Below, piece after piece: positions 12,090 to 14,384 of a stretch of 64,000 nucleotides of DNA. This DNA comes from Kribbella sp. NBC_01245 (lineage in GTDB: Bacteria; Actinomycetota; Actinomycetes; Propionibacteriales; Kribbellaceae). The position numbers and the translations under genes were made by a program. The stretch spans positions 3,720,001 through 3,784,000 of the forward strand of contig NZ_CP108487.1 in the NCBI RefSeq assembly GCF_036226525.1. Reading direction: 5' to 3'. The notes under the pieces are model-generated. The model was not told where the DNA came from. It did not search any database and was given only the letters and a program-made list of their open reading frames with translations. The stretch's first letter is position 1, and each line of letters begins with the position of its first letter.

Positions 12090-14360
12090 TTAGTTGTCCT
12101 TGGCAACCATTAGCCAGCTGATCTGGATGTCCGGCGAGCGCGTCGGTGCAACGGTGACGGTGATCTTGCCGTCCGCTCCAACCACGATGCCGCCGTACGC
12201 CGCTGCCGCGTTGGTGCCGGTGAAGAGCCGTTCCTGATCGACGACTGCTCCGTTCACCATCACCTGAGCCGCGCGATTCGCCCACGGCCAGGGATCGAAG
12301 TACCCCGCGTGCACGGTGTACGTCCCAGGCTCCAAGCCCTCGAACGTGTAGACGAGCGACTCGTGGTTCTTGGCGTACCGCAGGGTGCTGTACAGATCGC
12401 CACTACCCGCCGGAGCACTCGAGCCCGTGTATCCCCAGGTCGTCCCGGTGACGGGATCCACGCCCAGCGCTTGCTCAGGCCCGGAGTTGAGCAGCGGGCC
12501 TTCGCCGGCAGCGACCTCCGTCAGACGTTTCCAGTCCGGAGTGGCCACCCCGCCCGCGTTGACGGCGTACCGCAGGCCATGCGGGACCACCACGACCGTC
12601 CGGGTGAACGTGCGCCCGTCCGAGAGTGTGCCGCGGAGACTCGCCGGCCCTGGCTTTGCGACCGTTGACGCGTCCCAGGTGACCGACAGCTGGGTCGATC
12701 CCTTTGCGGTCGTGACGCTGACCTGGTTCGGGAGATTGCTCGTATCGTCCAGCCACACGTGGTCCGGTAGCACCGTGCTGACGGTCCAGCGTTGATAGGG
12801 CTGGAGGTCGCCGAGCTTCCACTCCTGGTCCGGGCCGATCGACAGGCTGCCGCCCTCACCGAAGCGCATCGGCATCCAGACGTACGGCGCGTTGGCGAGG
12901 TCGTTGGGGGTCCACCGGTCGCCCATGTAGAGGTACTTCCCGGCCGCGCGGTCGTACGGAATCACGTTGGTGCTCTGCGATCGGAAGGTGTTCGCCGCGC
13001 CGTCCCCGCTGATCGGGTTGCCGCGGTCGGTCCATTGGCCGAGGATGCTTTGCGCGGTGGCATACCTGGCCGGGTTGGGATCCCAGCCGGTCGCGCCGGA
13101 CGTGACCAGGTAGTACGTGCCCTCGGACTTGAACATCGCCGGCGCCTCACGCTGGTTACACGGCAGCGTGCGAACGAAGTCCTTGCCCTGTACGGCGTCC
13201 TCGGGCTTGGCGGAAAGGTACGTGTAATCCCCTCTGAGCTTGGAGATGTACATCGTCCGGTTCTCCTCGGACGAGTAGATGATGTACCCACTGCCGTCGT
13301 CGTCGACGAAGAGCGTCATGTCCCGGGCCATGCCGCCGGCCGGGTCGAACGCCGACGACGTACCGCACCAAGGCACGGAGTCACTCGGCACCCGGTTCAG
13401 CCGGTATGAGTCGATCCAGCGGAACGGCCCCTTCGGCGAATCGGACACCGCCACACCCGCCTCGGCGCGCGCGTACGTCGACGTACTGGTCGGTGATGAC
13501 GGCCCGTCGGAGTGCACCCACATGACCCACTTGCCGGTCGACTTGTTGTAGATGACCTTCGGGCGCTCGAGGATCGACGGCCTCGCCCAGCCGTCCGTGC
13601 GCACGCTGTTCGTCGACAGGTCCCGCCAGACGATCTCCTTCTGCGCTGCGGTGTATCGCCCGTAGAGCTTGGCGAAATACTTGTCGGTCTCGAACTGGTC
13701 GGGAGAACTCAGAGCCCGCAGTGCGAGCCCTTCGTCCTTCCAGTTGTAGAGGTCGTACGACGCGTATACGTGGACGCCGGGGCTGTCGTAATACCCCTTG
13801 CTGCGGTCCTCGCCGTACCAGTACCAGATGCGTCGGCCGTAGTCGTCGGTCGCGGGAACGACCTGGCCACCGTGAGCCTGGATCACCTTCCCGTTCGTAT
13901 CCCGCCACTCCGCCCCCGGCCGGAACGACTCGTAGGCCGCGGCGGAAGCGGACTCGGCGGATGCCGGGCCCGCTCCCGCCGAGACGAGCACGGACAAGGT
14001 CAGAGCCGCGAGCGTGACGGCACCTGTGGCGAGGAGCTTTCTGAGGTTTTGACGTCCTCCACCCGCCTGAAGGCGAGGGATTCCAACCCGCCACCCGGAG
14101 GTAGCAGGCTGCGGTTCGCGGATCGTAGCCGTGCCCAACTGCGCAAGAAGGCTCACCGCGCTGCCACGGCCCGCCCGGCCGCAGTCACCACAAGGTCTAA
14201 CGATGGTGCAGGTGCCGGCCGCTTGGTTATCGCAGGCCAGCACTGCAAAACGTACCCGACGCCCCCGACAAAACCCTAAAAGGAGAGACCGGCGCTTCCT
14301 CCCCGCCATGACGGACGGGGTGCCCACGCCGGACGATCGATTAGAGCTGGGCGATTTCAT
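12090..14360 (-). CDS. GH43 enzyme (exo-beta-1,3-galactanase-like) with disrupted N-terminus
   Basis: A 756-residue open frame. Rough layout: residues 1-12 from the original start, 13-103 encoded by an IS200/IS605-type element, 104-135 a signal peptide core (NLRKLLATGAVTLAALTLSV then an Ala-rich end), a GH43 five-blade propeller at about 140-500, an Ig-like domain, and a C-terminal galactose-binding or malectin-like domain. The stretch IQAHGG followed by WYWYGEDRSKGYYDSPGVHV and YASYDLYNWKDEGLALR is typical of GH43 subfamilies 24/34, which include exo-beta-1,3-galactanases acting on arabinogalactan. The ATG at 14360 has GAGGA eight bases upstream and lies 24 bases after the GH5 stop, so the two form an operon. 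The insert keeps the frame but places about 100 residues before the signal peptide, so export may be lost unless an internal start is used. Confidence 0.85.
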   Translation of the reverse strand: MKSPSSNRSSGVGTPSVMAGRKRRSLLLGFCRGRRVRFAVLACDNQAAGTCTIVRPCGDCGRAGRGSAVSLLAQLGTATIREPQPATSGWRVGIPRLQAGGGRQNLRKLLATGAVTLAALTLSVLVSAGAGPASAESASAAAYESFRPGAEWRDTNGKVIQAHGGQVVPATDDYGRRIWYWYGEDRSKGYYDSPGVHVYASYDLYNWKDEGLALRALSSPDQFETDKYFAKLYGRYTAAQKEIVWRDLSTNSVRTDGWARPSILERPKVIYNKSTGKWVMWVHSDGPSSPTSTSTYARAEAGVAVSDSPKGPFRWIDSYRLNRVPSDSVPWCGTSSAFDPAGGMARDMTLFVDDDGSGYIIYSSEENRTMYISKLRGDYTYLSAKPEDAVQGKDFVRTLPCNQREAPAMFKSEGTYYLVTSGATGWDPNPARYATAQSILGQWTDRGNPISGDGAANTFRSQSTNVIPYDRAAGKYLYMGDRWTPNDLANAPYVWMPMRFGEGGSLSIGPDQEWKLGDLQPYQRWTVSTVLPDHVWLDDTSNLPNQVSVTTAKGSTQLSVTWDASTVAKPGPASLRGTLSDGRTFTRTVVVVPHGLRYAVNAGGVATPDWKRLTEVAAGEGPLLNSGPEQALGVDPVTGTTWGYTGSSAPAGSGDLYSTLRYAKNHESLVYTFEGLEPGTYTVHAGYFDPWPWANRAAQVMVNGAVVDQERLFTGTNAAAAYGGIVVGADGKITVTVAPTRSPDIQISWLMVAKDN
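14049..14325 (-). mobile_element. IS200/IS605-derived hairpin element (PATE-like remnant)
   Basis: Read on the minus strand, the segment begins near a hairpin CCCCGTCC...GGCGGGG (14301-14320) and ends with GGAATCCCTCGCCTTCAGGC and GGGTGGAGGACGTCAA (14049-14084), the hairpin and terminal pattern common at the right end of tnpB-type elements, where the omega-RNA scaffold ends. No transposase gene remains; a short Cys-containing stretch (CTIVRPCGDCGR) may be the decayed tnpB end. The element lies within the 5' part of the GH43 gene, in frame. The left boundary is approximate. Confidence 0.6.
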
Positions 14361-14384
14361 AGGATTGTCCTCACTCGCAATGGG

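Follow-up and report, generated by a model that had tools for sequence, protein, structure and literature searches.

PATEs are usually regarded as bare transposon ends. As published, they have palindromes near their termini, no terminal inverted repeats and no target duplication, are too short to encode a transposase and have ends related to those of IS605 elements (PMC3119063). A PATE-like sequence of Halanaerobium retains the last 58 nt of tnpB (PMC3119063, PMC7290912). In ISDra2, TnpB is directed to the vacated donor site, adjacent to a target motif, by right-end RNA that carries about 16 nt of flank, and cutting there has been proposed to restore the element (PMC8612924). Both PATEs and TnpB omega-RNAs are already known; a literature search of incomplete coverage found no PATE family in which a TnpB scaffold is maintained by selection. 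The element described here lies in a GH43 gene of Kribbella and belongs to a family that appears to be of this kind.

The window (the whole stretch of Kribbella DNA analyzed, 64,000 nucleotides) contains on the minus strand an ORF of 756 codons, 12090-14360, which runs from its ATG through the element into a signal peptide and a GH43 domain. The features of the host gene are as follows:

14358-14360, minus strand: start codon ATG of the GH43 gene (sequence, ORF list)
14368-14372, minus strand: Shine-Dalgarno-like GAGGA of the host gene (sequence)
13956-14048, minus strand: signal peptide, NLRKLLATGAVTLAALTLSVLVSAGAGPASA (hydropathy, orthologues)
13014-13781, minus strand: GH43 domain, residues 194-449 (PF04616, E 2e-16)

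The element is inserted seven codons past the start codon and ahead of the normal signal peptide; the 21 nt that precede it (ATG AAA TCG CCC AGC TCT AAT) are host sequence. By hydropathy, the hydrophobic signal peptide occupies residues 105-135 of the ORF. When the flanks were joined without the element, they gave an ordinary signal peptide, MKSPSSNNLRKLLATGAVTLAALTLSVLVSAGAGPASA, in frame. Another 22 Kribbella genomes have the GH43 gene. In most of them a start codon directly precedes the signal peptide, and the extra segment is missing from every N-terminus read in the correct frame, which leaves out a few of the genes. The ORF, the joined flanks and the orthologues, which do not share the long N-terminus, thus bear out a sequence-only reading that had placed a mobile element in frame between the start codon and the signal peptide. 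The interval given there, 14049-14360, was correct at 14049 and too long at the other end, where the first 21 nt belong to the host and the element stops at 14339. Pairwise dN/dS of the GH43 gene was 0.164 against its orthologues and 0.189 among the orthologues themselves; since the former is not above the latter, the gene shows no visible decay or relaxed selection.

The limits of the element were set by aligning, with their flanks, 12 full-length copies from the same genome. Its features, and those of the sequence adjoining it, are:

14049-14339, minus strand: whole tnpA- and tnpB-less IS200/IS605-type element (PATE), 291 bp or 97 codons (alignment of 12 full-length copies and flanks, own-genome search)
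14340-14343, minus strand: insertion motif of the left flank, TAAT at this copy; the remaining full-length copies and almost every tnpB element have TCAT
14262-14339, minus strand: left end, common to the resident tnpB elements (sequence comparison)
14301-14320, minus strand: left-end hairpin, CCCCGTCC..GGCGGGG, conserved among copies (sequence)
14269-14276, minus strand: GGGTTTTG, site of an extra base (copy alignment, frame test on the consensus)
14212-14243, minus strand: 5' hairpin with conserved loop GATAACCAA, absent from the resident tnpB elements (copy comparison)
14081-14184, minus strand: predicted omega-RNA scaffold of hairpin A, helix B, hairpin C and stem D (match to model R1, 119.9 bits; structure counts)
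14059-14079, minus strand: right-end terminal hairpin (sequence, copy alignment)
14049-14059, minus strand: right-end tip GAGGACGTCAA, the element terminus (copy alignment, comparison with tnpB elements)
14033-14048, minus strand: host flank as would-be guide, AACCTCAGAAAGCTCC (position, analogy with ISDra2, PMC8612924)

A DNA search of the genome with this segment identified 14 copies of the family, 12 full-length and 2 truncated at the left. The 11 other near-full-length copies had identities of 83-90% (best E 2e-111), far above chance. In the copy alignment the element begins CGATTGTCCGG immediately after TCAT and terminates GACGTCAA; the left flank is TAAT at the GH43 copy, in contrast to TCAT at the other full-length copies. 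The 11-bp GAGGACGTCAA, searched by itself with one mismatch permitted, was not significant. The same search returned several loci with only the ends in common; these proved to be tnpB-only elements (PF07282, PF01385, PF12323; NCBIfam guided_TnpB). About ten such resident elements have the same ends, the TCAT motif and the GACGTCAA terminus, which upholds the earlier proposal of a tnpB-less element with IS200/IS605-type hairpin ends. Palindromes are located near both ends without terminal inverted repeats, the termini CGATTGTCC and GACGTCAA not being inverted repeats of each other. No target duplication was seen in the flanks of the copies, or at the empty site that a relative offers for a related copy. 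With 14 copies, a length of 291 bp that is too short for a transposase, and ends related to IS605-type tnpB elements, it fits the published description, and it is on that ground that we assign it to the PATEs (PMC3119063). It contains neither tnpA nor tnpB, and with no Y1 transposase of its own inside the 291 bp it is not an autonomous IS200/IS605 element. Related standalone elements were found in five other Kribbella genomes. Against plasmids, the search returned nothing beyond weak partial matches, many of them at the right end, and no Rfam family was matched above its threshold by the window stretch or by three related loci.

The left-end TCAT, when read on the opposite strand (ATGA), is in most cases where the neighbouring gene has its start codon. 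An ORF begins at this TCAT in 9 of 11 copies of the same genome (L002-L012), in 8 of the 9 tnpB elements whose left end was located (L035-L040, L042 and L043 among them) and in all 4 copies from other species (L072, L073, L078, L079); these are raw counts without a formal background. In stem D and at the left end the own-genome copies are close to the resident tnpB elements, and in their core to the standalone copies of other species (L072-type); they look as if their ends had been exchanged.

The full-length copies range from 287 to 291 bp, and the GH43 copy is the only one of 291 bp and the only one with a length divisible by three. The family consensus, at 290 bp, is not a multiple of three and has stops in the GH43 frame. 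When one base was added to the consensus at GGTTTTG, as found in the GH43 copy, the whole frame became open; the GH43 copy thus owes both its length and its open frame to one extra base. A 290-bp copy of the family type would have broken the GH43 frame, and the base added at 14269-14276 would have restored it. The simplest account of these sequences is that the element inserted first and that a change of one base later brought translation back. Alternatively, the source copy may already have carried the extra base. A suitable length is expected by chance in one copy of three. The GH43 protein is probably now made with a 97-residue arginine-rich extension ahead of its signal peptide (16 Arg/Lys, 3 Asp/Glu and 5 Cys, as translated). 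It is possible, and we think unlikely, that this extension is never made because translation begins inside the element, the open frame being fortuitous. In-frame GTG and TTG codons do occur within the element, and copy L005 likewise has one open forward frame. These codons are weak, however, with no clear ribosome-binding site ahead of them, the ATG and GAGGA of the host are intact, and among the lengths of the copies that of the GH43 copy is the only one to keep the frame. The suggestion that the element supplies a new start thus gains little from the sequence. The GGAGG at the right end was considered as a Shine-Dalgarno sequence and rejected, no ATG, GTG or TTG being found at suitable spacing downstream. 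The extension may abolish export of the enzyme.

In the tnpB elements the parts 3' to the Zn-ribbon domain are, in order: hairpin A (GCGGCC..GGCCGU), helix B (CACGC/GCGUG), a variable hairpin C, GAACC, stem D, the terminal hairpin and GAGGACGUCAA. This order recurs in the tnpB-less copies, whose helix B is CGCGG/CCGCG. A covariance model, R1, built from 20 standalone (tnpB-less) cores only, found full-length matches in 30 of the 38 Kribbella genomes searched. All 23 matches of at least 97 bits were standalone copies, and many weaker ones adjoin a PF07282 domain where PF07282 was searched. R1 matches these tnpB-linked regions end to end, the terminus of the element coinciding with the end of the scaffold, as in an omega-RNA (reRNA); the earlier suggestion that such a scaffold would end in the right-end sequence agrees with this. 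Pairing was found in 97.9% of cells as opposed to 35-48% in slid versions. Two pairs were changed on both sides, and the one-sided changes were of the G-U type on the sense strand. These counts support the structure and are not proof of it, because related sequences can exceed shuffles without any structure; single-sequence folding energy was not significant, so the structure rests on comparison. Judged in this way, the tnpB-less element carries a TnpB omega-RNA scaffold. Upstream of the scaffold, all standalone copies have a 5' hairpin with the loop GATA(A/G)CCAA, in which pairing is consistent yet not above shuffles (399/2000).

No part of the element is better conserved than the scaffold core. 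Among the 12 full-length copies, 13 of 75 columns vary in the core versus 99 of 214 elsewhere (Fisher p=8e-6), and singletons number 10 versus 78 (p=0.0014); both values are optimistic because the core limits were picked after the alignment had been viewed. When all 75-column windows were scanned, 0 of 20,000 shuffles were as low. Gene conversion could likewise keep the core uniform within one genome. The two copies that lack the left end have no private changes in the core (0/75 each) and 4 and 5 of 140 elsewhere. Three loci, L074, L075 and L076, in three of the five other genomes with standalone elements, represent one old standalone copy, which lacks its left end and occupies one site common to these three Kribbella species. 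It lies within a decayed transporter gene and has kept the core, with its right-end tip changed or lost; in a fourth genome the intact transporter gene reads TTCAT|CAAAACATTCGAGTACAAC (TTCAT|CAAAAC) at the insertion point, which is the empty site and checks the limits of the element independently. This copy adjoins a conserved promoter region and the N-terminal fragment of the transporter. In two of the three loci the first 19 nt past the right end are identical, and similarity then ends. By eye, variable sites of the core were not enriched at third codon positions, and a protein reading of it was set aside.

In these few species, the core pattern fits selection on an RNA rather than on transposition. 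An ordinary PATE, mobilized in trans by TnpA and with a core that is no more than a remnant of the 3' end of tnpB without RNA function, would account for the ends that the family has in common with tnpB elements, and PATEs with the last part of tnpB are already known (PMC7290912, PMC3119063). We nevertheless regard this as doubtful, since the core is less variable than the ends required for transposition, is retained in immobile copies and pairs with G-U changes on the sense strand. The retention of the core in left-end-less copies, and the position of one of them in three species beside a promoter region and a transporter fragment, would also suit a scaffold RNA co-opted by the host for regulation, either by TldR-like guided repression or in a guide-independent role. 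This we consider improbable. In the genomes of the two species that have the 19-nt guide in common, no second exact match to it was found, and the contig of the G024 copy has no match to a TnpB domain. A search for a second target of the TldR type, run with up to 2 mismatches on the guide of this one immobile copy, gave no further exact match.

The whole genome yielded one partial match to a Y1 transposase and no intact one; such a transposase would have moved the element in trans and has since apparently been lost. RuvC D-E-D motifs are kept in five resident TnpBs (L035, L036, L037, L041, L043), which by motif appear to be catalytically intact. It should be noted that helix B and hairpin C of the resident tnpB scaffolds are unlike those of the standalone core, and for this reason the resident TnpBs may not bind the standalone scaffold. 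An order-wide search for a parental tnpB with a standalone-type core gave as its closest matches two tnpB elements of another genus, at 74% identity over 74 nt; these have a helix B of standalone type beside tnpB. At C1:3895994-3896089 of the own genome there is a match to the tnpB-type scaffold with no TnpB Zn-ribbon match adjoining.

By analogy with ISDra2, an RNA that continues past the right end into the adjoining flank would load resident TnpBs in trans. Loaded in this way, they would cut empty copies of each site, and the element would be retained or copied again, a form of homing by an element that owns no nuclease, with transcription, loading and cutting all inferred. At the GH43 copy, where the element would have entered a TAAT/TCAT site, the guide would be AACCUCAGAAAGCUCC. 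The target motif adjoins the other full-length copies and is replaced by TAAT here, and stem D, next to the guide, has several changes; on these grounds the GH43 copy is a poor candidate for the guide-like RNA once suggested for it, and probably a weak guide. The case for a guide-type RNA is stronger in the other copies of the family and in other genomes. We judge it probable that a non-autonomous PATE entered the GH43 gene, had its frame restored by one base, and belongs to a family whose scaffold is kept for use by resident TnpBs in trans. More tentatively, a mobile family with no protein and the scaffold alone could be a parasite of an RNA-guided nuclease that homes by means of host TnpBs in trans, in which selection on the guide RNA is separable from selection on transposition.

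Selection seems to keep the guide-RNA scaffold and not the ends, which makes the exploitation of TnpB in trans by non-autonomous elements directly testable, and at GH43 a PATE has turned protein-coding, apparently through a single frame-restoring base. Standalone omega-RNAs, guide scaffolds with no adjoining nuclease gene, have reportedly been seen for IscB; the Kribbella scaffold differs from these in two ways, as it is of the TnpB type and belongs to a mobile PATE. The TldR RNA-guided repressors (family in PMC13418256) are similar in having a guide-type RNA that possibly acts outside transposition, but neither a nuclease-dead TnpB beside the Kribbella copies nor a second target was found. 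ISDra2-type TnpB and its reRNA (PMC8612924) share with the Kribbella family a right-end scaffold that ends at the terminus, a guide from the flank and a target motif at the left end; the Kribbella element lacks tnpB and would need TnpB in trans. The PATEs of Haloquadratum and the PATE-like sequence of Halanaerobium are similar in their IS605-derived ends, near-terminal palindromes, multiple copies, lack of a transposase and lack of target duplication (PMC3119063, PMC7290912). What we did not find described in either paper, and what distinguishes the Kribbella element, is that a whole omega-RNA scaffold is kept as its most conserved part (PMC3119063, PMC7290912).
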